Source: a virus. Taken from it: a stretch of 23,838 bases of DNA. Below the pieces are notes generated by a model. The model ran no database searches. It was not told where the DNA came from and was given only the letters and a program-made list of their open reading frames with translations. The stretch covers positions 1 to 23,838 of IMG/VR virus record IMGVR_UViG_3300006802_000573. One strand, written 5' to 3'. A program made the translations under genes and the position numbers. Positions within the stretch are counted from its first letter, which is position 1; each line of letters starts with the position of its first letter. This document shows positions 2,429 to 22,157 of this stretch, in pieces.

Positions 2429-3382
2429 TTACGCTCCTTCCGTGTTTTTCAATTGTTTTGCGTACTCTTCGAGTGGCACTCCTAATTTTTTAGCTATTGC
2501 TACTTGTGAAGAAGTGAGTCTCACAGTTTTGCGACCTGGCTTTACGCTTCTTTGTGCTGAGGCGACCGTTTGCACGGGAGCTGTCGTAGTTGTTTCAGTA
2601 TTACCAAATTTATGGGGAAAGTCAACTCTAATACGTTTATCAACTTCCACATAATACTCGTCAGAGCTAGGATCAAACCCTTCTTTTTCAGTAAGATCCT
2701 TATGTATCTCAAATGCAGTATAAGTCATCGCTCTATCACTACCAAACCAAGTATTTTTTGATGCCCAAGCTTCTGCTCTAGGATCAGGATTATCTGGTTG
2801 TTTTGTAATATCAGGTGCGTTTTGCACTTGAGAAGGTTTTGTTAGTTTATCCTCTTCTACTATCTCCTCTTGCCCTTGTTTTATTTGTTCAAGCTTTGCA
2901 TTTTCAAAGGCTAAAGTTGCAATTCTCTTATTAGCTTCAACTTGAGCTTTAGAATCTCCAGTATCGATCGCAGCAGCTAATTCTTTTTGTGCAGCTTCCA
3001 ACCCTGTTTGAATACTAGTCTCAAATTTTTTAACATAATCAGAATCTGTTTTCTTAAATTTAGATTCTAATTTTTTTCTAGATTCTTCTACACCTTTAGC
3101 ATAATCAAGAGCTGCGTGTTCTCTTCTTTCAGCCTCTCTTAATTTACGAGTTAGTTTTCCTATTCTCGCTTGTACACCTTTGCTGTAGTCTTCTAGTTCA
3201 CCGTCAGATTTTTTTTCATCTAACTTTGTTTCTCTTTCATTTTCAAATGATTTGTCTGTTTCTTGTTCCTTGTTTTCTTCTGGCTGTTCAATTACAGCTT
3301 CTTCTTTTGCTTCTTCAATATCTACCGTAACATCAGATCCTGATGTATCGATGGGTACTGTCTTTTTTTCTTCGTCTGGCAT
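2429..3382 (-). CDS. Putative capsid scaffolding protein
   Basis: This 317-residue protein is highly charged. Residues about 1-70 are very acidic (repeats of Glu/Asp/Lys), and about 75-180 are heptad-like and rich in Lys, Glu, Ala and Leu, consistent with a long coiled coil (RIGKLTRKLREAERREHAAL). A more ordered C-terminal third follows, ending in a basic segment (PGRKTVRLTSSQVAIAKKLG) that could contact the capsid shell. Composition, length and position between the portal and the capsid genes fit a scaffold that directs procapsid assembly. No protease motif was seen. It starts with ATG behind a GGAAGGAG site. The scaffold role is inferred. Confidence 0.65.
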   Translation of the reverse strand: MPDEEKKTVPIDTSGSDVTVDIEEAKEEAVIEQPEENKEQETDKSFENERETKLDEKKSDGELEDYSKGVQARIGKLTRKLREAERREHAALDYAKGVEESRKKLESKFKKTDSDYVKKFETSIQTGLEAAQKELAAAIDTGDSKAQVEANKRIATLAFENAKLEQIKQGQEEIVEEDKLTKPSQVQNAPDITKQPDNPDPRAEAWASKNTWFGSDRAMTYTAFEIHKDLTEKEGFDPSSDEYYVEVDKRIRVDFPHKFGNTETTTTAPVQTVASAQRSVKPGRKTVRLTSSQVAIAKKLGVPLEEYAKQLKNTEGA

Positions 3383-3401
3383 AGTTTACTCCTTCCTATG
3401 A

Positions 3402-3812
3402 TTAAAACTCATGCAATATGTCTTCTGGACTATCTATTGTTGCTAACACTTCATCGTCGTTTAGCAGACGCATTTCCCCACCATCTATCTTGATCCGTGA
3501 TCCAGCGTAACGCGCAAACATTACCCAATCATTGACCTTGCACCATGGACCTTTAGGATATCTCTCCTTATCCTTATAACAATCTGGACCCATAGCTAAA
3601 ACTAAACCAACTTGAGATGCAACTTGTTGCCTTTCTAAAGTTGTTTCAGCTAATACTAATCCACCTTTAGTTTTATCTTTCATTTTAAAAGGTAAAACTA
3701 TCATTCTCCAACCTGTCGGTTTTGGTAATTTTGGTTCTTCTTTTTTCTCTGATTTCTTTACACCAATAAGATCATTGTTTGGTGTTAAGATTGATGACTG
3801 TTCCTTTTTCAT
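3402..3812 (-). CDS. GroES-like co-chaperonin
   Basis: After a 32-residue charged N-terminal extension, the 136-residue protein follows the GroES pattern. There is a first strand (GWRMIVLPFK, about 34-43), then KGGLVLAETTLERQQVAS, which matches the GGLVL plus mobile-loop region contacting GroEL, then VGLVLAMGP, and finally VNDWVMFARYAGSRI with a terminal NDDEVLATI strand. Phage co-chaperonins such as T4 gp31 replace host GroES so that large capsid proteins can fold in the GroEL chamber, and the position among head genes fits that role. The first 41 bases overlap the end of the upstream small gene. The family call is by motif; the capsid substrate is inferred. Confidence 0.8.
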   Translation of the reverse strand: MKKEQSSILTPNNDLIGVKKSEKKEEPKLPKPTGWRMIVLPFKMKDKTKGGLVLAETTLERQQVASQVGLVLAMGPDCYKDKERYPKGPWCKVNDWVMFARYAGSRIKIDGGEMRLLNDDEVLATIDSPEDILHEF

Positions 3813-3999
3813 TTTGCTCCTTATCGTTTAGCAGGTTAGAGATTTCCTGTTTGGTTGCCTCTAGGGCGTTTATCTGTCCTATTATATACTGATACTTTTC
3901 CATATTGTCAACACCTCCTGATGTTACTGTTATGGATAGTGCTTCTATTCTAGTATTTATAAAATTGATTAGTTTTCTTAATACGTTTTCTAATTGCAT
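3772..3999 (-). CDS. Small conserved coiled-coil phage protein
   Basis: This 75-residue protein is mostly helical: MQLENVLRKLINFINTRIEA, then a TSGGVDNMEKYQYIIGQ segment, then a polar helix with LNDKEQNEK. The TVTSGGVDNMEKY sequence resembles a recurrent small protein found beside the portal-to-capsid interval of marine phages, of unknown function. Its stop overlaps the co-chaperonin start by 41 bases in another frame, and its start directly abuts the stop of the next upstream gene, which indicates coupled translation. Confidence 0.7.
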   Translation of the reverse strand: MQLENVLRKLINFINTRIEALSITVTSGGVDNMEKYQYIIGQINALEATKQEISNLLNDKEQNEKGTVINLNTKQ

Positions 4000-4293
4000 T
4001 TAACATTTCCATCTTCTACGAGCCTGCCTTATTCGTGAATTAGGATCAGCTGCAGCTTTTGGAAATTTTTTCATTTGACCTGCACTTCTTGCACAGTACG
4101 ACTTACGTCGGTTTGCAGCTTTTGATCCTGGCTTCACTTTTCCAGTCACGGCTGTTTTTAGTTTTGAACCGGGATTATCTCTTCTATATCGGGCGACCCC
4201 AGCTTTAGTCATCCCTGCTCCAGACTTTGTAGATCTGAAATACTTTTTAGTTTTTGGAGGATTTGTTCCTTTTGAATAATATTCTCTTCTCAT
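4000..4293 (-). CDS. Small basic Cys-containing protein, DUF6321-like
   Basis: This 97-residue, strongly basic protein contains GAGMTKAGVARYRRDNPGSK followed by LKTAVTGKVKPGSKAANRRK and ends DPNSRIRQARRRWKC. That arrangement is characteristic, as I recall it, of the DUF6321-type domain in marine phages and giant viruses. The high Lys/Arg content suggests nucleic-acid binding, perhaps inside the capsid, but no function is established here. It shares one base (TAATG-type overlap) with the gene upstream and belongs to a row of four basic small proteins (4000-5316). Confidence 0.75.
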   Translation of the reverse strand: MRREYYSKGTNPPKTKKYFRSTKSGAGMTKAGVARYRRDNPGSKLKTAVTGKVKPGSKAANRRKSYCARSAGQMKKFPKAAADPNSRIRQARRRWKC

Positions 4294-4547
4294 TATACAA
4301 ATGTTTTTACGTTGGTTGGTTTACCACCGGGATTACCTGCTGATCGTTTTCGTTTGACAGCACTCGCCTTTTGCCCTTTTGTCATCCGTGTGGCTTTTGC
4401 AAGTGGGACGCATTTTGGATATTTCCGTTTCGAGCCTTTGCTTCTCCCGCACGGCTGATACTTTCCGTTCTTCTTCGGTGCTCCAATGTCTACCCATTTT
4501 TCCGCTACCCATTGTCTTAAACCACCTTTTGAAAAGTGTGTACGCAT
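4293..4547 (-). CDS. Small basic protein, DUF5872-like
   Basis: This 84-residue basic protein has WVAEKWVDIGAPKKNGKYQP followed by CGRSKGSKRKYPKCVPLAKA and TKGQKASAVKRKRSA. The WV-D plus CGR and KYPKCVP motifs recur in small phage proteins annotated with DUF5872-like domains. Two Cys (in CGRS and KCVP) could hold a metal or form a disulphide. It shares one base with each neighbour, so the row is read as one coupled unit. The role is unknown; packing or DNA binding in the head is a guess from composition. Confidence 0.75.
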   Translation of the reverse strand: MRTHFSKGGLRQWVAEKWVDIGAPKKNGKYQPCGRSKGSKRKYPKCVPLAKATRMTKGQKASAVKRKRSAGNPGGKPTNVKTFV

Positions 4548-4795
4548 TACGAATTCTTTCCGTAAGCTTTTCCTTTACCTTTTGTAGCTAATTTACACAT
4601 TCCACCACTTCCGTAAGTAATACGAGGTGTATCCATCATCATTCCACCACCCATAGCTTTTTTTCTTTTCTTCTTGCCACCTGGTGTAACTTTGCCTGAA
4701 CATACAGCTGATGCGTACATGTTTGCGTACGCCGAAGGGTACACTTTAAATTTACGCTTTGCTGCTGCTTTACCTCTAGGACATAGTTTTGCCAT
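4547..4795 (-). CDS. Small basic protein with CPRGKAAAKRKF motif
   Basis: This 82-residue protein opens with MAKLCPRGKAAAKRKFKVYP and continues with SAYANMYASAVCSGKVTP, a conserved-looking block seen in small phage proteins, then a basic Gly/Met-rich tail with KKKRKKAMGGGMMMD. It has three Cys (near 5, 32 and 67). It is probably related in ancestry to the two neighbouring basic proteins through this Cys/Lys block, but that needs a profile comparison. It overlaps both neighbours by one base. Confidence 0.7.
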   Translation of the reverse strand: MAKLCPRGKAAAKRKFKVYPSAYANMYASAVCSGKVTPGGKKKRKKAMGGGMMMDTPRITYGSGGMCKLATKGKGKAYGKNS

Positions 4796-5316
4796 TAGAT
4801 TACCTTTTTATTTTTCTTTTTAGGTATTACACCTTTTGCCATTAAAATATCTTTTTGAGTAATCTTACCATCACCAGAATGATCAGGGAACTTGGAACCT
4901 TTTTTAAGAGCAGCTCTACCACCTTTTTTCATGTTTACTAATTTTTTTGCCATCGAAATATCTTTTTCGGAAAATCTACCTGTATCTAAAGGAGTCATTT
5001 CTTTTTCCCCTCTTCTTTTTTTCATGATTTCTTTTAATCTTTCAATTTGTTCTTTAGTTAAACCTCCTTTTGATATGCCCATATCATTATTTAATTTTCT
5101 AATTCGATCTGCTGCAAGTGTAACTTTACTTTTGATCTCACCCATTCTACCACTGTCTGCTCCACCACCTTTGTTAGCAAACATTCTCTTTTTAGGTTTT
5201 TCTTTTTTAACTTTTTTCTTAGGTCCAAAAGTTTCCATTATTTTTGCAATGTTGGATTTTCTTTTAGATGGATTAGTTCCATTTCTTAAATTTTGTCTGT
5301 AATATTTGTTAGCCAT
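4795..5316 (-). CDS. Lys-rich protein with an EF-hand-like loop
   Basis: This 173-residue protein is dominated by Lys (NIAKIMETFGPKKKVKKEKP) with internal segments such as LTKEQIERLKEIMKKRRGEK. Near the C-terminus the sequence FPDHSGDGKITQKDILMAKG matches a calcium-binding EF-hand or dockerin-like loop, with D-x-S-x-D-x-K-x-T-x-x-D spacing. A partial echo, FSEKDISMAKKLVNMKKGG, lies about 25 residues before it, suggesting an internal repeat. Marine phage virion proteins often carry this DHSGDGKIT block. Its function is unknown. It is coupled by a one-base overlap to the membrane protein upstream. Confidence 0.7.
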   Translation of the reverse strand: MANKYYRQNLRNGTNPSKRKSNIAKIMETFGPKKKVKKEKPKKRMFANKGGGADSGRMGEIKSKVTLAADRIRKLNNDMGISKGGLTKEQIERLKEIMKKRRGEKEMTPLDTGRFSEKDISMAKKLVNMKKGGRAALKKGSKFPDHSGDGKITQKDILMAKGVIPKKKNKKVI

Positions 5317-5702
5317 TATTTTTTGCCTCCGTTTTTAAAAATCTGTGTACCCTTTATACCATAAATGCTCGCCACGACAAGGATCCATAAATTTGTAAAC
5401 CATTTCGGGAGCTCTGAGAACATCTCGAAGAACAATTTTACCTTGTCCATAGCGGTTGGATCATCCGATACGACTGCCCAAGCCAAAATTACCACGGGCA
5501 AACTTAAAATTATCAAAACTGCCTCGTCTTTCCAGTCCGATTGTCTGGCCTCAAGTAGTTTTCCTTGGTAAGCTTCCTTACCTTCGGCCATACGAGACGC
5601 ATGCATCAGTTGTGCATCCGACATTGCCATTTTAGTCTTCTGCTTGTTAGCATAAATCTTACTTCCAGCAGAAACGGCTAGTTTAATCGCCTGAAACCAC
5701 AT
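5316..5702 (-). CDS. Small membrane protein in the virion gene cluster
   Basis: This 128-residue protein has an N-terminal helical region (residues 1-55), then two hydrophobic stretches, about 61-78 (AVLIILSLPVVILAWAVV) and about 102-117 (FTNLWILVVASIYGIKG), separated by a polar FFEMFSELPKW segment. Two membrane spans are likely, which is compatible with a holin-like, membrane-penetrating or assembly role; none is shown. It lies two bases downstream of the stop of the 59-residue gene. It is a recurrent type of hypothetical protein next to portal genes in marine phages. Confidence 0.65.
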   Translation of the reverse strand: MWFQAIKLAVSAGSKIYANKQKTKMAMSDAQLMHASRMAEGKEAYQGKLLEARQSDWKDEAVLIILSLPVVILAWAVVSDDPTAMDKVKLFFEMFSELPKWFTNLWILVVASIYGIKGTQIFKNGGKK

Positions 5703-5704
5703 AA

Positions 5705-5884
5705 TTATACTACTATTGCAGTTTTTCTTTTTCCAGCAAGCATTCTTTTAGTGCCATTTACCTTAACCACGTCGGGTTTAGCAATATAATTGAAAGCACC
5801 ATCAGCAGTTGTCTTAGATCTTGGATCTATTTCAACACTTTGCTCTGGAACAGAACTAACTTTTGCTTTTTTATAGTTCATCAT
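5705..5884 (-). CDS. Small conserved phage protein, 59 residues
   Basis: ATG at 5884 is preceded by an AAGGAGC ribosome site; a second ATG follows directly (MMNYKKAKVS). The frame continues through DPRSKTTADGAFNYIAKPDV to GKRKTAIVV and a TAA at 5705. It sits between the portal and the membrane protein and has the codon pattern of its neighbours. Short proteins with a TTADGAFNYI-type block beside the portal are typical of marine phages. The function is unknown. Confidence 0.7.
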   Translation of the reverse strand: MMNYKKAKVSSVPEQSVEIDPRSKTTADGAFNYIAKPDVVKVNGTKRMLAGKRKTAIVV

Positions 5885-5908
5885 AGTTTTTTGCTCCTTG
5901 TTTTTTTA

Positions 5909-8356
5909 TTAATCATCTATCATAACTTTAGCTTGTTGTACACCGCTCTTTGCAAGGCTAACTCCAGCTCTTAACTTAGCCAAATCTTCATTCTGTTCTA
6001 ATTTTTCATCAAAATTTTCACCTGATTGCATTAATCTTGCCTTTGCAATATCGTTTTGAGATTTGTCATAGTCTTTTTTACGTTCATTTTCCATTGCACG
6101 TAAGTCAACTTCTCTAGATTTTAGTTTTAATAATGGATCATTGTCGAATTGAGAGGTAATCTTCTTTTCTTCCTTCATAAATTCTTCAGTCATCTCTGCA
6201 ATTAACACAGATTTTCTAGCTTCAATTTGATTTGTTAGCATTTGTAACTGTTGTTGTACCATTGGATTCATTGCTGCTTGTTGTTGCATCAACATCATCT
6301 CTTGCATTTGCTCTCTGAACTCTAATTGTACTTGTTCTTGTGCCATTAGACTTATGTGCTCTAATATATTTTTTTGTATAGCAGCCATAAATGCAGGATT
6401 ATTTCTAACCATGTTGGTTGACATGAAATTTAAGTGTGCAGTTATATGAGCTCTATGATCTTGACCTGGAAACGCTTGGAAAGGTTTGCCATTTAAAGCA
6501 TTAATGTGTTCCATACTTGGATCCATAGGAGCGTTTGGAGCTGGTGGTGGTAGAACTGCGTCTACATTTTTAACACCAATTGCTTCATACATATTTCGAT
6601 ATACTTGATATAGATTGTGTATCTGTGGATTACTTGTTGCAAGTTGTAACTGTGTTTGTGCTAAACTAATTCTCTGAGACATAGAAAATATATTAGGATC
6701 TGCAACGGGTACTACATCTATTCTATCATCAAAGTCAGCTTGTTTAATGTTCCGTGCTCCACCGACAACGTCGTATGGATATTCTGGCGGTAGATATTGT
6801 GAAACAACTTTAGCCAATAATTTAAATTCATCTTTCATGGCTGCGTAACATCTTTTATGAATAGCACTCATGACCCTTGAACCACGTTCCAATAACGCAA
6901 CTGTAGTTCCAACAGCCGCTGCTTGATTACCATCGCCCACTTGCATATCAGCAATAGCAGCGAACCTTTGACCAGCTTGAACTACAACACCCATTAATTG
7001 TAACAATGTTTGTGATGGTTCTTTGTATGGTAAAGGGAAAAATGCATCTCTTAAATTACCACCTGGTGCATCTACATCTTTAAATTCACCTGGTTGAATT
7101 GGTGAGGCTTCATCTCTGACTCTAACTCCACGTTGTTTAAATCCTGCTGGTAGGTTTGATAATGTACCCGCATCTAATAATTGACGGAGAGCAGAAGTTG
7201 CAGTTCTACTTAATCCGCCAATCATATGAATTAACCCAAAGCCATAAAATCCTAAACCGGGAAGAAACTTAAAATGAACAAAATATTGGATTTTATTTTT
7301 CTTTAGATCTGTGGGCGCATAATTTCTTCTTATTGCAAGAACTGTTCTACTACCTTCTTCAACAGTTACAATGTATGGTAATTTAATTCCTGTGGGTCCT
7401 TCTTGTCCTTGATCTTCAAAACCTTCTAAGTCTAAGTTTACATGACACTCAAGTAAAGTATATATCGTTTCTTGTTTACCAGTTTTCTTAGTCCCATCTA
7501 ATTCTTTTTCTTTTTTCTCAACTGAGTTTTGTTCAACATTACTTGGTGGTGCAAGATCTACATCCACATAAAAACCATTTACTTGTTGTTTTCTCAATTC
7601 ATTCTCTGACATTTTAACAACATGTATAACTGCTTCTGCATCATCAATTGAAGTTGCAGTGTATGGTACTACTAATTCATCAGCTGGTACAAATTTTGAA
7701 ACTACTCTACCTAACGGTACATCATAGTAAATTTTTTTAAACGTAGAACCAGCAAGTGGTAAATGAAATAACATTGCATCAAACTCTTCTTCGTATTCTT
7801 TCATCTGATCCATGATTAAATAATTCATGTAATCTTTAACACGTTGTGATTGTGATTCTGTTTGTTGGTTTTTAACTCCTATGATCTGTGTTCTTACAGG
7901 GCCATCACTTGGTAATAATTCTTTGTAAGCTTGTGCTTGAAACTGTGTAACTGCTTCTGCAAGAACTGGGTGAGTTGCACCACTAGCTCCTTGAAACGGT
8001 TCCGTTCTATTCTCATATTTAAAACCTAATAGATCTAAACCTTGTGTGTAAGATTGTTCCCAATCTTTTCTAGAAGATTTATAATCTAAATAGTTACTAA
8101 CCATTTCAGATCCAATTGGATTTAAAATATCATCTGGTAAAATGTCTGCTAAATTATCAAAATGATTCTCGGTTCCTGGTACATTGATTGCACCCGGTTC
8201 AAAGTCTAATGTTACACCACCATCTTCTTCGGGTATAACTTCTATCGGTCCTTTACTATCTTCTGGTTCTTGAACGCTAACTTCTTCTATTTCCTCTTGC
8301 GAAGGAACTTCTAGTTTCGTCCGAGTGTTCGGAAGACCTTTGTCCATTTCTGCCAT
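5909..8356 (-). CDS. Portal protein, P22-like
   Basis: This 815-residue protein forms the dodecameric ring through which DNA enters and leaves the head. After an acidic N-terminal 75 residues comes a portal core with the segments NYLDYKSSRKDWEQSYTQGL, THPVLAEAVTQFQAQAYKEL, FHLPLAGSTFKKIYYDVPLG and FLPGLGFYGFGLIHMIGGLS. Next is QVGDGNQAAAVGTTVALLER, equivalent to the stem and wing region. From about 667 to the end it is Gln/Met-rich and coiled-coil-like, matching the extended C-terminal barrel of P22-type portals. The ATG follows a GGAG site. The terminase lies two genes upstream, the usual order of packaging then portal then head genes. Confidence 0.88.
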   Translation of the reverse strand: MAEMDKGLPNTRTKLEVPSQEEIEEVSVQEPEDSKGPIEVIPEEDGGVTLDFEPGAINVPGTENHFDNLADILPDDILNPIGSEMVSNYLDYKSSRKDWEQSYTQGLDLLGFKYENRTEPFQGASGATHPVLAEAVTQFQAQAYKELLPSDGPVRTQIIGVKNQQTESQSQRVKDYMNYLIMDQMKEYEEEFDAMLFHLPLAGSTFKKIYYDVPLGRVVSKFVPADELVVPYTATSIDDAEAVIHVVKMSENELRKQQVNGFYVDVDLAPPSNVEQNSVEKKEKELDGTKKTGKQETIYTLLECHVNLDLEGFEDQGQEGPTGIKLPYIVTVEEGSRTVLAIRRNYAPTDLKKNKIQYFVHFKFLPGLGFYGFGLIHMIGGLSRTATSALRQLLDAGTLSNLPAGFKQRGVRVRDEASPIQPGEFKDVDAPGGNLRDAFFPLPYKEPSQTLLQLMGVVVQAGQRFAAIADMQVGDGNQAAAVGTTVALLERGSRVMSAIHKRCYAAMKDEFKLLAKVVSQYLPPEYPYDVVGGARNIKQADFDDRIDVVPVADPNIFSMSQRISLAQTQLQLATSNPQIHNLYQVYRNMYEAIGVKNVDAVLPPPAPNAPMDPSMEHINALNGKPFQAFPGQDHRAHITAHLNFMSTNMVRNNPAFMAAIQKNILEHISLMAQEQVQLEFREQMQEMMLMQQQAAMNPMVQQQLQMLTNQIEARKSVLIAEMTEEFMKEEKKITSQFDNDPLLKLKSREVDLRAMENERKKDYDKSQNDIAKARLMQSGENFDEKLEQNEDLAKLRAGVSLAKSGVQQAKVMIDD

Positions 8357-11535: not shown

Positions 11536-11738
11536 TATTATTTAAGGTGACACTTACATTTAAAAAGAAACAATTTCAAGTTGAAAACACAATATCTTGT
11601 GCCTGGAAATTAGGACCTACTATATGTAGTAAATTCAAGAGCTATCGAAAATTATTCAATTATTGACTTGATTACTCTTTACTATCCTATAATCTCCTTG
11701 ATATGAATAATATAAAAAACAAAACGAAAGAAGAAACA
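11536..11738. promoter_or_regulatory. Divergent regulatory region with palindromes and a plus-strand promoter
   Basis: This region separates the minus virion block from the plus accessory block. It has three short palindromes: TTTCAA-G-TTGAAA (11574-11586), CACAA-TATC-TTGTG (11588-11601) and CTAC-TATAT-GTAG (11617-11629). A plus-strand promoter follows, TTGACT (11663-11668) and TATAAT (11688-11693) with a 19-base spacer. The palindromes are candidate operators for a phage regulator. Confidence 0.55.
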
Positions 11739-12305
11739 ATGACTAAATATATATACAACAAAGACAGTTTTGATAATGCTTTAGAGGTTTCAAATTATCC
11801 TTGGGGTTTTAGATTAAAAACTAAAAGAAGAACATGGATTGAAACAAACAAAACAAAAGGCGACAGAGTTTGTTTTTGTACTTTAAATCCTAAAACTAAT
11901 AAATGGTGTGCAGTTAAAAAATCAACATATAATGCAGTTGATGTTTTATTTATAGACGAGAATGAACACATCAAATCAATTGGACTTTGGAAATATGGAA
12001 CAACTGAAATTGATCTTGAAAGCTTTCTTTTTAAGATTGATTATAATTCTTTAAGTTTGTTGCAAAAGAAACAGATTGAGAGAATTAAAGCAGTAAACAA
12101 AGTAATGGAGAAAGTTTCTTTTAAGGTTGAAAAAGTTTCTGAATATAATCTTTCCGACCCTCTCGACCTAATAAGAATGAGAAGAGAAAACAACTCGGAA
12201 GAAACTAAAAAGAGAGAACAAGAACAAAATCAAATTAAAGGTAAAATTGTAAATGCTATCAATAACACTTACAATCAAAGTTTGATTAAAAACAATTTGA
12301 AATAG
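11739..12305 (+). CDS. Conserved phage hypothetical protein, YPWGFRLKTK type
   Basis: This 188-residue protein has an N-terminal domain containing VSNYPWGFRLKTKRRTWIET, then TLNPKTNKWCAVKKSTYN and VLFIDENEHIKSIGLWKY. A Lys/Glu-rich helical C-terminal half follows. A YP-GFR-KTKR-W-E...LNPKT block of this kind recurs in marine phage early regions; its function is unknown to me. I chose the ATG at 11739 because a GAAAGAAGAAA purine tract precedes it; an in-frame ATG at 11703 lies only 9 bases after the -10 box and would need leaderless translation. Its TAG stop overlaps the first base of the hammerhead ribozyme. Confidence 0.75.
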   Translation: MTKYIYNKDSFDNALEVSNYPWGFRLKTKRRTWIETNKTKGDRVCFCTLNPKTNKWCAVKKSTYNAVDVLFIDENEHIKSIGLWKYGTTEIDLESFLFKIDYNSLSLLQKKQIERIKAVNKVMEKVSFKVEKVSEYNLSDPLDLIRMRRENNSEETKKREQEQNQIKGKIVNAINNTYNQSLIKNNLK

Positions 12306-12356
12306 ATCGAAACCCCCTCAAGGGGGTCTTGAGGTTAATCCTCAACTGATGAGATC
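12305..12356 (+). ncRNA. Type II hammerhead ribozyme
   Basis: All core elements are present in order. Stem II 5' strand GATC (12305-12308), GAAA (12309-12312), stem III CCCCC-UCAA-GGGGG (12313-12326, closed by a tetraloop), U16.1 at 12327 pairing with the last A of GAAA, and cleavage base C17 at 12328. Then stem I UUGAGG-UUAAU-CCUCAA (12329-12345), CUGAUGA (12346-12352) and stem II 3' strand GATC (12353-12356). Stem II is a 4-bp self-complementary GATC pairing with the expected G10.1-C11.1 closing pair. The open helix is stem II, so this is topology type II. Predicted cleavage is between 12328 and 12329. No mismatch to the invariant core was found; activity is not shown. Confidence 0.88.
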
Positions 12357-12379
12357 AGAAACAAAAAGGAGAAGATAAG

Positions 12380-12952
12380 ATGAATATAAAAGAGTTAATA
12401 AAAAACAATAAATATATCTGTAATTCAGATAATAAAAATTATATGGAAATTACAGAATTCAAAGACAATAAAATTTCTATATGTCCTCAAGGTGGGGGAT
12501 TTGTTAAATCTATAGATATAGACAATGGAAAGTTTATTGATGATGTTGTTAGTGAAAAAATTAAATTCACCAACGATATGCCAATGAGATGGAAAAAGGT
12601 AAAATTATTTCATGATCATTGGTTGTCAGATAGTGTAAATGAAAACGGAGAATATACTATTGAACATTATATTGAAGGATATGTGACTAATCATAAATGG
12701 AATGGATGGTCAATTCCTATGGTTGAACTAGACCAAATTAAAAAGTTTAATCAAATTCAGAAAAAAACTATGGATTGTGAACCTACATCAATCTTTAAAA
12801 TTATTGATGATGAAAATATATCTATCAGAGATTTTAACGAAGATGAGATAATCACACTTGAAAGATCTGAATTTAGTGTGAACGGTAAAACAATCAAAGC
12901 TTTTGATGTGTCACTTGGTTGGACTTGGTCAGAAGAAGAAATAAACAAATAG
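12380..12952 (+). CDS. Hypothetical AT-rich accessory protein
   Basis: This 190-residue protein starts MNIKELIKNNKYICNSDNKN and ends VSLGWTWSEEEINK. It is acidic, with many Asp, Asn, Lys and Ile and no membrane segment or recognisable catalytic motif. An AAAAAGGAGAAG ribosome site precedes the ATG, 24 bases downstream of the ribozyme. If the ribozyme cleaves, this gene becomes the first cistron of a transcript beginning with the stem I hairpin. The family is not recognised. Confidence 0.75.
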   Translation: MNIKELIKNNKYICNSDNKNYMEITEFKDNKISICPQGGGFVKSIDIDNGKFIDDVVSEKIKFTNDMPMRWKKVKLFHDHWLSDSVNENGEYTIEHYIEGYVTNHKWNGWSIPMVELDQIKKFNQIQKKTMDCEPTSIFKIIDDENISIRDFNEDEIITLERSEFSVNGKTIKAFDVSLGWTWSEEEINK

Positions 12953-12967: not shown

Positions 12968-13414
12968 ATGGTAAAAATAATAACTAATCAAAGTGGGGCG
13001 AAAGGTTTCGTCTGTCAAGGTCAATTTATAACAGACCCTTATGTTACGGAATGCATGAGATCAAATGTTGATCCAAAACAATACTATGGTTTGAATGATG
13101 ATGAATTAATTCATTTTAAACATTTAGAACCATTAAAAGAAGAACCACAACCAAGTTATGAAGAATTAGTGAAAGATTTAAAAGGAATGAAATTTTTCAT
13201 TGTTCGTTGGAGTGGCGATGCTTGTGACCATAATGAACTATTTGATAAAAAATGTGGTTGCCATACATCAAACAGAGTTGACGATCCAATTAAATTTTTT
13301 AATGAGTATCAATATGACAATGACACCATTAAAGATTTAAAAGAAATGGAACTTGGAGAAAAATATCAAGTTGATGAAATGATGCAAGACATCGAAATAA
13401 TGAGGGTTGAATAG
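12968..13414 (+). CDS. Hypothetical protein with Cys/His cluster
   Basis: This 148-residue protein contains a middle segment with SGDACDHNELFDKKCGCHTS (about 82-101), where four Cys/His residues (CDH and CGCH) could bind a metal, followed by an acidic C-terminus. The N-terminus (MVKIITNQSGAKGFVCQGQF) looks globular. It follows the previous gene through the linker stop-AAAGGAAG-ATG and belongs to the same plus-strand transcript. The function is unknown, and metal binding is inference. Confidence 0.7.
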   Translation: MVKIITNQSGAKGFVCQGQFITDPYVTECMRSNVDPKQYYGLNDDELIHFKHLEPLKEEPQPSYEELVKDLKGMKFFIVRWSGDACDHNELFDKKCGCHTSNRVDDPIKFFNEYQYDNDTIKDLKEMELGEKYQVDEMMQDIEIMRVE

Positions 13415-17413: not shown

Positions 17414-18075
17414 TCCTTAACTAACATTCCTTTCTTAATTTGATTTAAGGGCGCTGAGTCGTGGACATTGCCACTGACTGATACTCTCACACAATCAGAG
17501 TCAAACGGACTAACCCAATGTTTCAACCACGCAGGAAAGATAAACATCTCACAGTCTTTAGGAAAGTAAGACATATAAGTAATACAATCTCTAATTCCTT
17601 CACCATACATAAACTGTATGCCTCCGGGTCCGCAAGATTTACCACTATACTTTTCGTTTTCTTTCTTCAAAGGATCAGGCACGGATAGATATATTACAAA
17701 TGATAATTTACCATCATGATCGTGTGGTGGGTTAAATTCATATTGACGTTGAAAATTACACCAAAGAGCCGTTAGTGCGTATTCTGGTTTTGAATCGTAA
17801 AACTTTCCTTGATACTTTTGAAACATTTGATCATAAATACCTAAGTATGGTGCAAGATAAGGTATAATTTTATCTCTAGACTCTTGAGTATAACCTATTT
17901 CTTTTTCTATTTGACCCGCAAGTTTGTGTCTATAGTCTTCTTTAGATTTTTTAATCTCACTTAATAACACTTTTTTAAAATCATCTTGTATCTTAAGTTT
18001 TATGACACAAGGACCCCAATTAAAAGTTCTGACTTCTATCTGTGGGTTATTTTCTTTTTTCTTTTTCTTTGACAT
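17410..18075 (-). CDS. 2-oxoglutarate/Fe(II)-dependent oxygenase, putative
   Basis: This 221-residue protein shows the pattern of the 2OG-FeII_Oxy_5-type phage oxygenases. FNPPHDHDGKLSFVIYL (about 115-130) carries the iron-binding His pair (H118, H120), with a nearby Asp. GPGGIQFMYGE follows in the middle. MFIFPAWLKHWVSPF carries the distal iron His (H186), and RVSVSGN the 2-oxoglutarate-binding Arg (R197). These enzymes hydroxylate proteins, nucleic acids or small molecules; marine phages carry several, with unproved substrates. Here it is co-transcribed with nucleases, so DNA or nucleotide modification is possible but inferred. Its start overlaps the homing endonuclease stop by 29 bases. 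Confidence 0.8.
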   Translation of the reverse strand: MSKKKKKENNPQIEVRTFNWGPCVIKLKIQDDFKKVLLSEIKKSKEDYRHKLAGQIEKEIGYTQESRDKIIPYLAPYLGIYDQMFQKYQGKFYDSKPEYALTALWCNFQRQYEFNPPHDHDGKLSFVIYLSVPDPLKKENEKYSGKSCGPGGIQFMYGEGIRDCITYMSYFPKDCEMFIFPAWLKHWVSPFDSDCVRVSVSGNVHDSAPLNQIKKGMLVKE

Positions 18076-18496
18076 TGTGTTCTCTCCAAAATTTGTAATA
18101 ATTAAAATCTATTACTTCGTTTTTTGTTTTAACTTTTATTTTTTTCTTAGCGTAATGAGCTATTATTTTTTGTATTCCATCTAACTTTATGTGAGCAAAA
18201 GGCCATAAAAGTTTAGAAACATAATAAGCATCACGGTGACAACACCTCCAACGCCATTGTTTTTTCCAAGTTTTTGAGTACCTTGTCTTATATCTTTTCT
18301 CTCCAACAGTTCCAACTCCCAAAGTTTCACAAACCCAAATTAAAATAGATTGATCTGTCATTGCCATTTCCATTCTAATTGACCAAGTTGGATAAGGTTT
18401 AATGTTATGCTTTCGTTGACGCATGTATTGTTTGTATTGAATATGTCCCTCGCCATCAAACAAACCAGCTATATAAGCTAAATTCTTTTCTTCCAT
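18047..18496 (-). CDS. LAGLIDADG homing endonuclease, free-standing
   Basis: This 149-residue protein carries one LAGLIDADG motif, LAYIAGLFDGEGHI (about 6-19). The variant DGEG holds the catalytic acid in the usual position. RMEMAMTDQSILIWVCETLG and a central RWRCCHRDAYYVSKLLWPF follow as in one-motif homing endonucleases, which act as homodimers. Such genes spread by cutting alleles that lack them. It is free-standing in the operon, sitting in a one-base overlap (TAATG) after the zinc protein and overlapping the oxygenase start by 29 bases; no intron was recognised around it. Confidence 0.88.
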   Translation of the reverse strand: MEEKNLAYIAGLFDGEGHIQYKQYMRQRKHNIKPYPTWSIRMEMAMTDQSILIWVCETLGVGTVGEKRYKTRYSKTWKKQWRWRCCHRDAYYVSKLLWPFAHIKLDGIQKIIAHYAKKKIKVKTKNEVIDFNYYKFWREHNVKEKEKRK

Positions 18497-19542: not shown

Positions 19543-19711
19543 TCGTTCCCCATCTTATAATATTTCTAAGACCTGGTGCACTAACTTGTAAGTCTACACC
19601 ATATGGTTTCCAAGCTCGCTTCATTAAATTTAACTCTAACAAAAATGCACTGTATTGTTTGGGTGTTGCACCTTTTGGTTTGATAGTTATTATCTTTTCT
19701 TTAGCTGCCAT
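19508..19711 (-). CDS. Small conserved phage protein, 67 residues
   Basis: The product reads MAAKEKIITIKPKGATPKQY and continues with LLELNLMKRAWKPYGVDLQV, with SAPGLRNIIRWG near the end. KPKGAT...W-PYG is a familiar short phage block with no assigned role. It follows the restriction-like gene with an 11-base overlap and an AAGGAGAG site. Likely same transcript. Confidence 0.65.
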   Translation of the reverse strand: MAAKEKIITIKPKGATPKQYSAFLLELNLMKRAWKPYGVDLQVSAPGLRNIIRWGTNAYSKPIRQDS

Positions 19712-22157
19712 TACTCTCCTTTCTTGATATCAAATTATCTCCATCTACCATTATAATATCATGTTTGTTAGCCAACTCCTTAGCTGACGGACTAAATCTA
19801 GATGAAGTTATAAACATTTTAATTTTTTTATAGTTAGATTGTTCTTCGTCACAAGCTGTTTTGAAAGCCCTCATCTCATTAGGTGGTATAGGTGTCTTCC
19901 AATGTTTACATTGAACCATTAGATATTCTGTATCTAAGTTATCTAATACTTTCATAGCCCTAATGTCTATACCTCCGTCATAGTTTTGACAAGTCTTAAC
20001 CTCATAACCTAATTTTTTAACATAATCCCTACAGTATTCTTCAAAACCAAGTGGACCCAACTGATCTATCTTTTCAGCTTCTGTTAACTCTCTGCTGTCA
20101 TAATAAAACAAACCATTTAAAGCAGTGTTTCTATAACGTATTTCTCTTTTCGTCATGTTGCTGCCCCATTCGGATTCTCTAACAAATGTATGTCCATCAG
20201 GTATCCATATATCTAATCTTTTAGCTAACAGTAATTGTTTCTTAGATGGTTTTTGATCCGTTACTAAACGTCTAATATGAGCTCTTCTTGTGCCACTAAA
20301 CTTTCTACTTTCATCAAAAAAATCTTTTTCTTTTTTTACCTGTGCAGCATGTGAGCTTCTTCTGTATCTAACTTTAGGAAAGTAAATATGATAGACAGAG
20401 TCAGTTTTACAATTACTTGGGGTTTTTCTACCTCTGTATTGCATTGTACTATCTCTTTCAATCAATACCTTTGCATCTCTGATACATGTTGCAAGTTTTG
20501 TGTAAATATCTTGAATACAATCTTCTGAATAGTTCTCATTTAGTTTTAAATTATTCCATAAAAAGTATTTAAAATCTCTTTTTTTCTTATCAAACACTTC
20601 AAAGAAATATCTTTCATTATCATCTGATATAACAATAGTAATATAATCTTGATATTCTCTAAACTTAATAAAACTAAACACCATGTCATGCAGTATTTCA
20701 AACACACCATCATAAGGCATTGTATAACCCAATGAACTATTCATAGCTTCTTCTATGATATGTTTGTTTTTAAAATCAAACGAACGTTGGTGTTTTTTTG
20801 CTTCTTCCATAAAACCATCATAGTCCACCGTAACATCTAATTGATCTACAACTATTTTATCACTAGGCTTTGCATCATTAACAATAGTTGAATCAATCAT
20901 ACAAAGAGGAAAGTTGTTTACATTTAAAACATTAAATATTAATTCTGTGACTTCTATTTTGTACCAAAATAATAAACAATCTGTTTTAGATTTAGTATCG
21001 TATTTTATTTCTCTACCATCACAAAGAGTTAATCCTTCATTTACGCAGTAGTATAGTAAGGCAGCTTTAACTATAACTTTTTTCAAATAAGTAGTGATTC
21101 TTTTTTCGAAAGCTAAATCATCTTTCTCACCTGCTATATCAAAAATATCTATATGTTTTTCATGGTTAAATATTTCTTGCATGTAATAATTTTTAATTTT
21201 ATCAAAGGTATTTAATCTTCTTAATTCGTCAAAGAACAAGGGTTTTTCTAAAAGATTTTTAGGTTCCTCTCTTCTAGATTTTGAATCTATGCTTGTACAA
21301 TGATACTCATTATACAAAGCTAAAATCTCAACAGCACAACTAGTTTTTAAACAGTCTTTTTTTGAAGTCTCGTCAACAATAATATCTTTTATAGGTTTTT
21401 CTTTATTATCTTTTAGTTTAAGAAGACCAATAAATTCTGTGTCCTTAGTTCTTTTAATAAAAAAATCTTTAAAATCTTTTGGTGGATTATACACAAGTGT
21501 TTTGTAATTTGCTGTTCTTAAATATTTTAACAATTTATCCATTGCTTTATTATTTTTAAAAACAAGTCTTGCTGCAGTATTTTTAGATACTTTAGGTTGA
21601 ACTACATATACTACAACTTTCTCGTCAAAATTTTTATGGTTCCAATCTATTTGACCATAATTAGAAAATGATTCCTTAAATATATTAAAAACACTTTTAC
21701 CTGCGGGAGTTGTATTTTCATCTCCAACCCCGGCTATTTCAAAAAACGCACAACCTTCGTTGCCTTTTAAAGGGTGGTTAACAATAAGGATCCCATCTTT
21801 GTAATGTTTTGCAAACAAAGCACCTTTGTACATAGGTTCATCAACATATTCTGAGTAGTCAACATTTACTATTTCAGGCACCCATAAATTTTTTATGATA
21901 TGTCCATCACCTCTTTCTTTATTTAATTTAGTTTGTTCGGCTATAAAGTTAATCATTTGTAGTGATTTTTTCCTACCAACTTTAGGTAAAATAAAAGCAA
22001 AGTTTTGACCATCTTTTAGGTTATCTCTCTCTTCCATTCTTTTAGAAAAAGTATCTCTACTACCAAAATGATCTTCAAACTTTTTTAAGTTCTCTTCACT
22101 CTTCTCATGTCCCTTAAAGACTTTACTCTCCCACCATTCTTTTACATATTCGTGCAT
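19701..22157 (-). CDS. Large protein with C-terminal Mrr-type endonuclease domain
   Basis: This 818-residue protein ends in an Mrr-like PD-(D/E)XK domain at about 700-812: LGFEEYCRDYVKKLGYEV, then YDGGIDIRAM with D731, then EYLMVQCKHWK with Q749-x-K751, then MFITSSRFSPSAKELAN. The preceding 700 residues match no nuclease, ATPase or methylase motif. They include a segment at about 625-665 (SGTRRAHIRRL...DGHTFVRESEWG) that faintly recalls the RRxHxRR...GxxVWVR blocks of phage and AcrVA2-related proteins; that is a weak impression. It has its own promoter and an AGGAGA site. No partner methyltransferase or NTPase is in the window. It may cut host or competitor DNA. Many Lys and Asn suit an AT-rich genome. 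Confidence 0.75.
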   Translation of the reverse strand: MHEYVKEWWESKVFKGHEKSEENLKKFEDHFGSRDTFSKRMEERDNLKDGQNFAFILPKVGRKKSLQMINFIAEQTKLNKERGDGHIIKNLWVPEIVNVDYSEYVDEPMYKGALFAKHYKDGILIVNHPLKGNEGCAFFEIAGVGDENTTPAGKSVFNIFKESFSNYGQIDWNHKNFDEKVVVYVVQPKVSKNTAARLVFKNNKAMDKLLKYLRTANYKTLVYNPPKDFKDFFIKRTKDTEFIGLLKLKDNKEKPIKDIIVDETSKKDCLKTSCAVEILALYNEYHCTSIDSKSRREEPKNLLEKPLFFDELRRLNTFDKIKNYYMQEIFNHEKHIDIFDIAGEKDDLAFEKRITTYLKKVIVKAALLYYCVNEGLTLCDGREIKYDTKSKTDCLLFWYKIEVTELIFNVLNVNNFPLCMIDSTIVNDAKPSDKIVVDQLDVTVDYDGFMEEAKKHQRSFDFKNKHIIEEAMNSSLGYTMPYDGVFEILHDMVFSFIKFREYQDYITIVISDDNERYFFEVFDKKKRDFKYFLWNNLKLNENYSEDCIQDIYTKLATCIRDAKVLIERDSTMQYRGRKTPSNCKTDSVYHIYFPKVRYRRSSHAAQVKKEKDFFDESRKFSGTRRAHIRRLVTDQKPSKKQLLLAKRLDIWIPDGHTFVRESEWGSNMTKREIRYRNTALNGLFYYDSRELTEAEKIDQLGPLGFEEYCRDYVKKLGYEVKTCQNYDGGIDIRAMKVLDNLDTEYLMVQCKHWKTPIPPNEMRAFKTACDEEQSNYKKIKMFITSSRFSPSAKELANKHDIIMVDGDNLISRKESNGS

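Follow-up and report, generated by a model that had tools for sequence, protein, structure and literature searches.

The virus sequence analysed here (IMG/VR record IMGVR_UViG_3300006802_000573, positions 1 to 23,838; the window below means this whole stretch of 23,838 nucleotides) carries a type II hammerhead ribozyme between two phage genes. We see about an even chance that this ribozyme punctuates a run of exchangeable phage genes, cleaving the transcript and leaving a product whose hairpin helps lock the two pieces apart. A broader version is put forward more tentatively, namely that phage type II hammerheads are bistable switches in which a covarying hairpin of 5 base pairs, tuned to stem II, sequesters the catalytic core and so gates operon splitting or makes it irreversible, at a plug-and-play junction where single genes are shuffled and the expression of their neighbours stays undisturbed. 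The parts of the region are as follows.

11715-11738, plus strand: leader before the 188-residue gene; by eye, 22 of its 24 bases match the leader that follows the ribozyme in locus L004.
11739-12305, plus strand: upstream gene (family F1), 188 residues, stop UAG; an open reading frame whose start is placed as it is after the ribozyme in relatives.
12303-12305, plus strand: UAG stop codon, its G shared with stem II (from the sequence).
12305-12308, plus strand: 5' strand of stem II, GATC; four base pairs in 414 of 424 distinct relatives.
12309-12312, plus strand: core GAAA; A12312 pairs with U12327 (A-U in 97/97).
12313-12326, plus strand: stem III hairpin, CCCCC(UCAA)GGGGG (from sequence, fold and relatives).
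12327-12328, plus strand: UH, that is U12327 and C12328, with the predicted cut at 12328/12329 (from sequence and relatives).
12329-12345, plus strand: stem I hairpin, UUGAGG(UUAAU)CCUCAA, 17 nucleotides with loop UUAAU (from sequence and relatives).
12346-12352, plus strand: core CUGAUGA (from sequence and covariance-model matches).
12346-12358, plus strand: rival hairpin CUGAU(GAG)AUCAG, the lowest-energy fold, mutually exclusive with core and stem II.
12353-12356, plus strand: 3' strand of stem II, GATC (from the sequence).
12357-12362, plus strand: 3' tail AGAAAC, common to close relatives.
12366-12371, plus strand: ribosome-binding site AAGGAG of the downstream gene (from the sequence).
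12380-12952, plus strand: downstream gene (family F0), 190 residues; weak match to phrog_9945 (unknown function).
12968-13414, plus strand: third gene of the run, an open reading frame of 148 residues with no ribozyme before it.

Read in order, the parts from the first GATC to the second account for every base of 12305-12356 on the plus strand. The complete type II hammerhead that the earlier note, made from the letters alone, had placed there is thus read directly, with all core bases and three closed helices, and C12328 is the expected cleavage nucleotide as judged from the motif. The window sequence and its relatives both give the type II topology, in which loops close stems I and III and stem II is open. 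A loose type II hammerhead pattern matched once in the whole window, against an average of 0.03 matches in 100 shuffles, and neither that pattern, the structural descriptor nor the covariance model found a second copy in the window. A terminator role for stem III on the plus strand was rejected, as no T-run is present. On the minus strand, stem III plus adjoining bases (12329-12310) scores as an intrinsic terminator, which is probably a by-product of the GAAA.

The Rfam type II model, to which the earlier note had also pointed, gave a divided answer. In a search of 261 nucleotides (12200-12460) the best sub-threshold match is RF02276 (Hammerhead_II), which spans 12305-12364 and scores 28.8 bits (E = 4e-4), short of the 37 bits needed for gathering, and the whole window has no Rfam match at the gathering score. 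Because an Rfam run at the gathering score recovered 0 of 30 ribozyme copies in the 18 loci tested, much of this class is probably unannotated in viral metagenomes. A permissive Rfam run over 8 loci gave 7 matches, two of which, both in L386, exceeded the gathering score.

Purpose-built models were also searched. The structural descriptor returned 166 rows, 146 of them distinct, in 1.42 Mb of loci, a few of them chance-like (e.g. L019, L021, 50-nucleotide stem I stretch), and had zero matches in three Markov resamples of the same 1.42 Mb. A covariance model was built from 51 copies, all with intact cores. Across 31 whole records, it matched in 23 of 23 records chosen by pattern and in 2 of 8 chosen by protein; ribozyme matches scored at least 44 bits, the next match 15.6, and positive records held 1-7 copies each. 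Seven of the model matches lie in one record, that of L055 (G011). A second model search, over 88 sources, gave 92 matches, of which 89 scored 42.7-73.8 bits and three 21.7-31.1. A copy missing one core base would probably still be found by this model.

Conservation and compensatory change support the hammerhead identity and topology well. The core is kept in related phages, its loss there being an outcome that the earlier note had named as refuting: GAAA and CUGANGA are intact in 92 of 92 covariance-model matches, 43 of which (not all distinct) lie outside the pattern selection. The pattern used on IMG/VR, GATCGAAAN{24,54}CTGATGAGATC, left stems I and III unspecified and retrieved at least 104 distinct sequences. 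Among the matches listed, UH stands at a fixed place in 98 of 104 distinct sequences, and the 17-nucleotide stem I hairpin with all six pairs is present in 97 of 104. Again among the matches listed, 592/624 stem I cells and 487/520 stem III cells are paired, where 500 shuffles gave means of 309 and 331 and maxima of 347 and 362, respectively. Compensatory change therefore supports stems I and III, neither of which the pattern named. Stem II and all stems taken together show compensation as well, a result that is partly circular because these rows were chosen by the descriptor for pairing. A chance sequence, or a decayed ribozyme without function, would agree with the Rfam score under gathering, but this is hardly credible in view of the conservation, the covariation and the lack of descriptor matches in the resampled loci. 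A chance motif as such is rejected on the shuffles, the Markov resamples and the stem pairing statistics.

In the window, the ribozyme sits between a stop codon and a ribosome site. Placement was tabulated in 137 distinct loci with 150 nucleotides on each side, 130 of which have a same-strand upstream open reading frame of at least 40 residues. The upstream stop codon begins at most 12 nucleotides before stem II in 120 of these 130 loci, and in 162 of the 177 with such a frame in a second, partly overlapping set of 187. The UAG that shares its G with stem II, a detail already remarked on for the window, is real and common in the class (51/130 loci) and not a local accident. An A immediately precedes stem II in all 137 placement loci and in 421 of 424 distinct copies, including those whose stop codon lies further up, and possibly makes a structural contact. 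Downstream, a same-strand open reading frame (at least 30 residues) starts within 110 nucleotides in 136 of 137 loci, at a median of 24 nucleotides after stem II; the opposite-strand controls for open reading frame placement give 43/137 and 89/137. Counting against the main reading, an open frame crosses the ribozyme in 10 of 137 loci on the same strand and in 14 of 137 on the other.

The upstream 188-residue gene had no family match in searches; 11739 is likely its right start, because in L016 and L043 a ribozyme and a ribosome site directly precede an ATG at this same protein start. The predicted model of the 190-residue protein (pLDDT 84.9, pTM 0.72) matched nothing in the PDB at E 0.001 or better. 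The ribozyme together with both neighbouring genes had no credible match among 50,697 phage records; one search gave matches of 18-26 nucleotides at E 7, and the other two gave none. Elsewhere in the window, the minus strand encodes an 818-residue protein whose C-terminal domain is a restriction endonuclease of the Mrr type (19701-22157; Mrr_cat, 5.6e-22) and a small homing-endonuclease candidate (18047-18496; an HNH endonuclease family in PHROG, LAGLIDADG_1 in Pfam).

Relatives of the downstream protein are encoded in 33 loci and those of the upstream protein in 15. A ribozyme lies just upstream of F0 in 11 of the 31 loci that hold the 5' end of this gene (L002-L011 and L016) and none was seen there in the other 20, the 31 including near-duplicates. 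Where stems I and III differ among these ribozymes, the two partners of a base pair change together, and stem III of L009 has a mismatch. Other RNA features recorded in the collected loci are two tRNA matches near the ribozyme of L068 (26-97 and 113-184) and a Betaproteobacteria-1 sRNA match in L075 (11459-11578).

Among 37 window-like copies, the genes that face a given family across the ribozyme vary. Ten copies with F0 downstream have six different families upstream, and the order flips from F6-ribozyme-F1 in L043 to F1-ribozyme-F6 in L095. Two loci are identical to the window over 62 nucleotides (ribozyme plus tail): L003 has the same downstream and another upstream gene, L043 the same upstream and another downstream gene. 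When 39 copies were compared in 741 pairs, a flank was shared on one side in 63, on both in 2 and on neither in 671, with 5 unclear; 58 of the 671 have a ribozyme plus 10-nucleotide tail at least 95% identical between unrelated flanks. Copy similarity is 0.82 within a contig and 0.61 between contigs, the former from 8 pairs only. The likeness of its leader to that of L004 makes a former ribozyme before the 188-residue gene possible, and 11715-11738 may be the scar of that lost joint.

Such permutation of gene order, and the 58 pairs with near-identical ribozymes between unrelated flanks, could also mean that the element is a DNA joint, a homologous site for single-gene exchange in which the ribozyme is a passenger. 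A pure DNA joint would need neither the core that is intact in all 92 model matches nor compensating stems, and we regard this account as very improbable. Since phages commonly exchange DNA at gene boundaries, the ribozyme can be said to persist at exchanged junctions, which is not proof that it causes the exchange.

A second structure distinguishes many of the phage copies. Their 3' tail carries N'UCAG, complementary to the core CUGAN, and this pairing excludes the active fold. The analysis covered 424 distinct copies, or 413 after dropping those with equal ribozyme and tail. In some copies with other stem II sequences, an XUCAG of their own directly follows stem II. Of 48 such copies at offsets 4-5, 47 have an X that forms a Watson-Crick pair with core position 7 (N7) and the remaining one is U-G, and 47 was never reached in 20,000 trials in which N7 was permuted within stem II classes. 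To remove sampling bias, full IMG/VR scans were made for the ribozyme with XUCAG at offset 4; they gave 104 matches with C7 and G, 2 with C7 and another base, and 112 with U7 and any X.

The long-loop tally drew on 729 sequences, 119 of them genome loci (these add 2 of 187 copies), and yielded 191 distinct sequences, 189 of which had all stems. In these 189, N7-X is U-A 98 times, C-G 87, U-G 3 and C-A 1, so that 185 of 189 are Watson-Crick (Fisher p = 4e-49, related sequences not being independent); with each distinct stem I hairpin counted once, the tally becomes 82, 60, 3 and 1. Both versions occur within single stem II classes (C-G and U-A respectively: GGCC 64 and 15, GACC 4 and 40, GTCC 9 and 19, GGTC 3 and 8, GCCC 5 and 5, GGCT 1 and 1) and co-occur within three contigs. 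L332 and L555 differ at 3 of 74 positions, two of which are the compensatory N7-X pair. Since N7 is the variable base of CUGANGA, catalysis alone does not explain its covariation with X. The rival hairpin is well shown by this covariation as a predicted structure of the long-loop class. The 8.2 kb contig L137, which carries both U7/AUCAG and C7/GUCAG versions, has eight type II ribozymes by descriptor at 3035-6289, seven of them with the 17-nucleotide stem I. Contig L592 also has long-loop copies of both kinds.

The strength of the hairpin also tracks that of stem II. Over five classes, C7:U7 is 65:16 with four G-C pairs in stem II and 13:31 with three (p = 3e-8), and copies without UCAG show no link between stem II GC and N7 (15:37 vs 15:53, p = 0.40). 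From UCAG to the start codon the median distance is 24 nucleotides (quartiles 21-27, 183 copies). Of 413 phage copies, 136 have the hairpin fully matched at offsets 1-5 and 277 do not, so the class can do without it. Samples of the class show it in a minority: with a match at offset 1 or 4-5 it occurs in 43 of 124 copies with C7 and in 15 of 132 with U7 and a stem II other than GATC, and in a bacterial-genome sample the hairpin stands at offset 4 in 2 of 71.

Three further pairing schemes found no support. The rival hairpin does not extend into stem I, whose last base avoids pairing with the base that follows UCAG (16/187 vs 44.5 when permuted, sd 3.9). A pseudoknot between loop I and the tail finds no excess complementarity (2.407 vs 2.426 permuted, sd 0.042; at least 4 base pairs in 31/413). 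A core-tail rule in copies without UCAG scored 2.88, against 2.79 permuted (sd 0.04) and 2.87 letter-shuffled, and yields no second refolding rule. For copies with UCAG, the tail-only score is 3.37, against 3.32 permuted (sd 0.05) and 2.78 letter-shuffled; these tails do not beat permuted tails because nearly all carry the same letters. A single link between loop I and the tail was observed, in which U at stem I position 11 goes with A at tail base 1 in 95 of 97, a possible tertiary U-A contact; with G at position 11 the tail base varies.

The hairpin of the window, CUGAU-GAG-AUCAG, is of the short-loop form, in which X lies inside stem II. The pooled short-loop association of N7 with X (Fisher 9e-12) is tied to stem II identity. 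In GATC ribozymes, AG follows stem II in 60 of 105 copies with U7 and 6 of 13 with C7, with no N7-AG association. Where stem II ends in RUC, the next bases are AG in 110 of 171 copies, against 55 of 242 for other stems, and within GGTC copies AG is present in 29 of 29 with C7 and 13 of 22 with U7, these related copies not being independent. For the window copy, analogy to the long-loop class and the folding energy are what suggest the rival hairpin. The missing N7-AG association among GATC ribozymes fits plain constitutive punctuation, as proposed in 2011, in which the AG tail of the window is coincidental and the rival hairpin matters only in long-loop copies. The excess of AG after RUC-ending stems, and its bias toward C7 in the related GGTC copies, are at odds with that proposal, which we think rather unlikely as the full account.

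Folding energies place the two structures close together. The minimum-energy fold of 12300-12362 keeps stems III and I and replaces stem II by CUGAU on AUCAG; for the window copy, the active fold is at -20.1 and the rival at -20.8 kcal/mol. The active minus rival difference averages -0.25 kcal/mol (sd 1.13) in 187 long-loop copies and +0.13 in 170 copies with any XUCAG, energies that omit core and tertiary contributions. Before cleavage, 155 of 187 long-loop copies have the active fold lower and 32 the rival, which speaks against a strong default-off gate.

These values bear on a gated ribozyme, in which the hairpin CUGAN:N'UCAG shuts the core before cleavage and an opener (temperature, a protein, an antisense RNA, or a 30S subunit initiating at the ribosome site close by) allows the operon to be split under some condition. 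A hairpin that excludes the active fold at nearly equal energy, follows stem II in strength and lies at a tight distance from the start codon would suit such a gate. No candidate trigger has emerged, however; once cleavage has freed the 3' product, that product too is predicted to form the hairpin, 277 of 413 copies have no fully matched hairpin, and the active fold prevails in most long-loop copies. We hold a gate of this kind to be unlikely, if still worth weighing.

The reading we prefer, cleavage followed by refolding, draws on the behaviour of the products. The free 3' product of the window is predicted to fold as stem I directly followed by the rival hairpin, and so are those of 186 out of 187 long-loop copies. 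Against this reading, the window products cofold at -22.4 kcal/mol with stem II kept, compared with -20.6 when separate, and the rival hairpin does not strip stem II in the cofold calculation. For long-loop products the association averages -1.4 kcal/mol (sd 1.2), a weak value at 1 M standard state that would probably not hold at cell concentrations. The hairpin is therefore read as an aid to lasting separation and not as a force that tears the duplex open.

Hammerhead chemistry leaves 2',3'-cyclic phosphate and 5'-OH ends. With its intact motif, the transcript would cut itself after C12328, plausibly separating the 188- and 190-residue genes. The upstream mRNA would end in the GC-rich stem III hairpin with a 2',3'-cyclic phosphate, and the downstream mRNA would begin with a 5'-OH and the stem I hairpin. 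The earlier note proposed that this hairpin might protect the new 5' end and that a ribosome terminating at the UAG might block folding; it mentions neither the rival hairpin nor the swapping of neighbouring genes. After cleavage, four stem II pairs and core contacts would still link the pieces. The 3' product could then refold, CUGAU pairing with AUCAG and consuming the catalytic core and half of stem II, which would help release the upstream piece and hinder re-ligation. Ribozyme and ribosome site together would form a junction at which neighbours swap yet stay separately expressed.

A SAR11-like host is plausible, because the large terminase resembles those of Pelagibacter phages (71% identical to HTVC027P, 62% to HTVC023P). 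Counting against the main reading, neither descriptor nor model finds a ribozyme in the whole records of HTVC027P and HTVC023P. In DSL-LC04 the descriptor found none over the first 50 kb and the model scored only 13.6 bits, and the first 50 kb of 023Pt_psg01 gave one weak, chance-like descriptor match inside an annotated gene. A covarying structure that excludes the active fold points to a specific and cheaply testable function, be it release, anti-ligation or gating. That the element sits so closely between a stop codon and a ribosome site, with neighbours that change, suggests why phages keep it.

Several known systems invite comparison. In viroid hammerheads, the catalytic fold competes with an alternative inactive fold of the same RNA; there the rival is the long rod-like fold of a circular RNA, and here it is a local hairpin of 5 base pairs. 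PeSL stem-loops are small repeated elements at the junctions of exchanged small genes in T4-like phages, and consist of a promoter and a stem-loop, whereas the window element is a ribozyme motif. The role of prokaryotic hammerheads was still called an open question in the accessible part of a 2017 review (PMC6155905), and most genomic self-cleaving RNAs are tied to mobile elements according to the portion available of PMC7761336. Phage type II hammerheads as gene punctuation are already known: Perreault et al. 2011 (PMC3088659), in the sections available, describe type II hammerheads of bacteria and phages (Rfam RF02276), with several copies flanking single genes of varying identity, and propose the processing of long phage transcripts. 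The terms 'stop codon', 'ribosome' and 'recombination' are absent from the available main text of that paper, and the literature searched, which leaves out most subscription papers and all preprints, yielded no account of a tail hairpin that pairs with the core or of genes being exchanged at hammerheads. As far as these searches show, the N'UCAG tail complementary to core CUGAN and covarying with N7 is new.

HHphage of haloviruses HF1 and HF2, as excerpted from the same paper (PMC3088659), likewise places a hammerhead just upstream of a phage start codon, with a 5' end mapped within three nucleotides of the cleavage site; its core variant is linked there to salt, whereas the core here is canonical and stands at gene-gene junctions. 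The type II ribozymes of the available sections of PMC3088659 have the same core, the same open stem II and a similar place near phage genes. Possible pseudoknots of at least 4 pairs between loop I and the 3' tail are described there for the majority of type II examples, while complementarity here is at the level of permuted tails. Unlike the type II ribozymes of those sections, the copies described here have a tail that can pair with the catalytic core and that covaries with it in long-loop copies.
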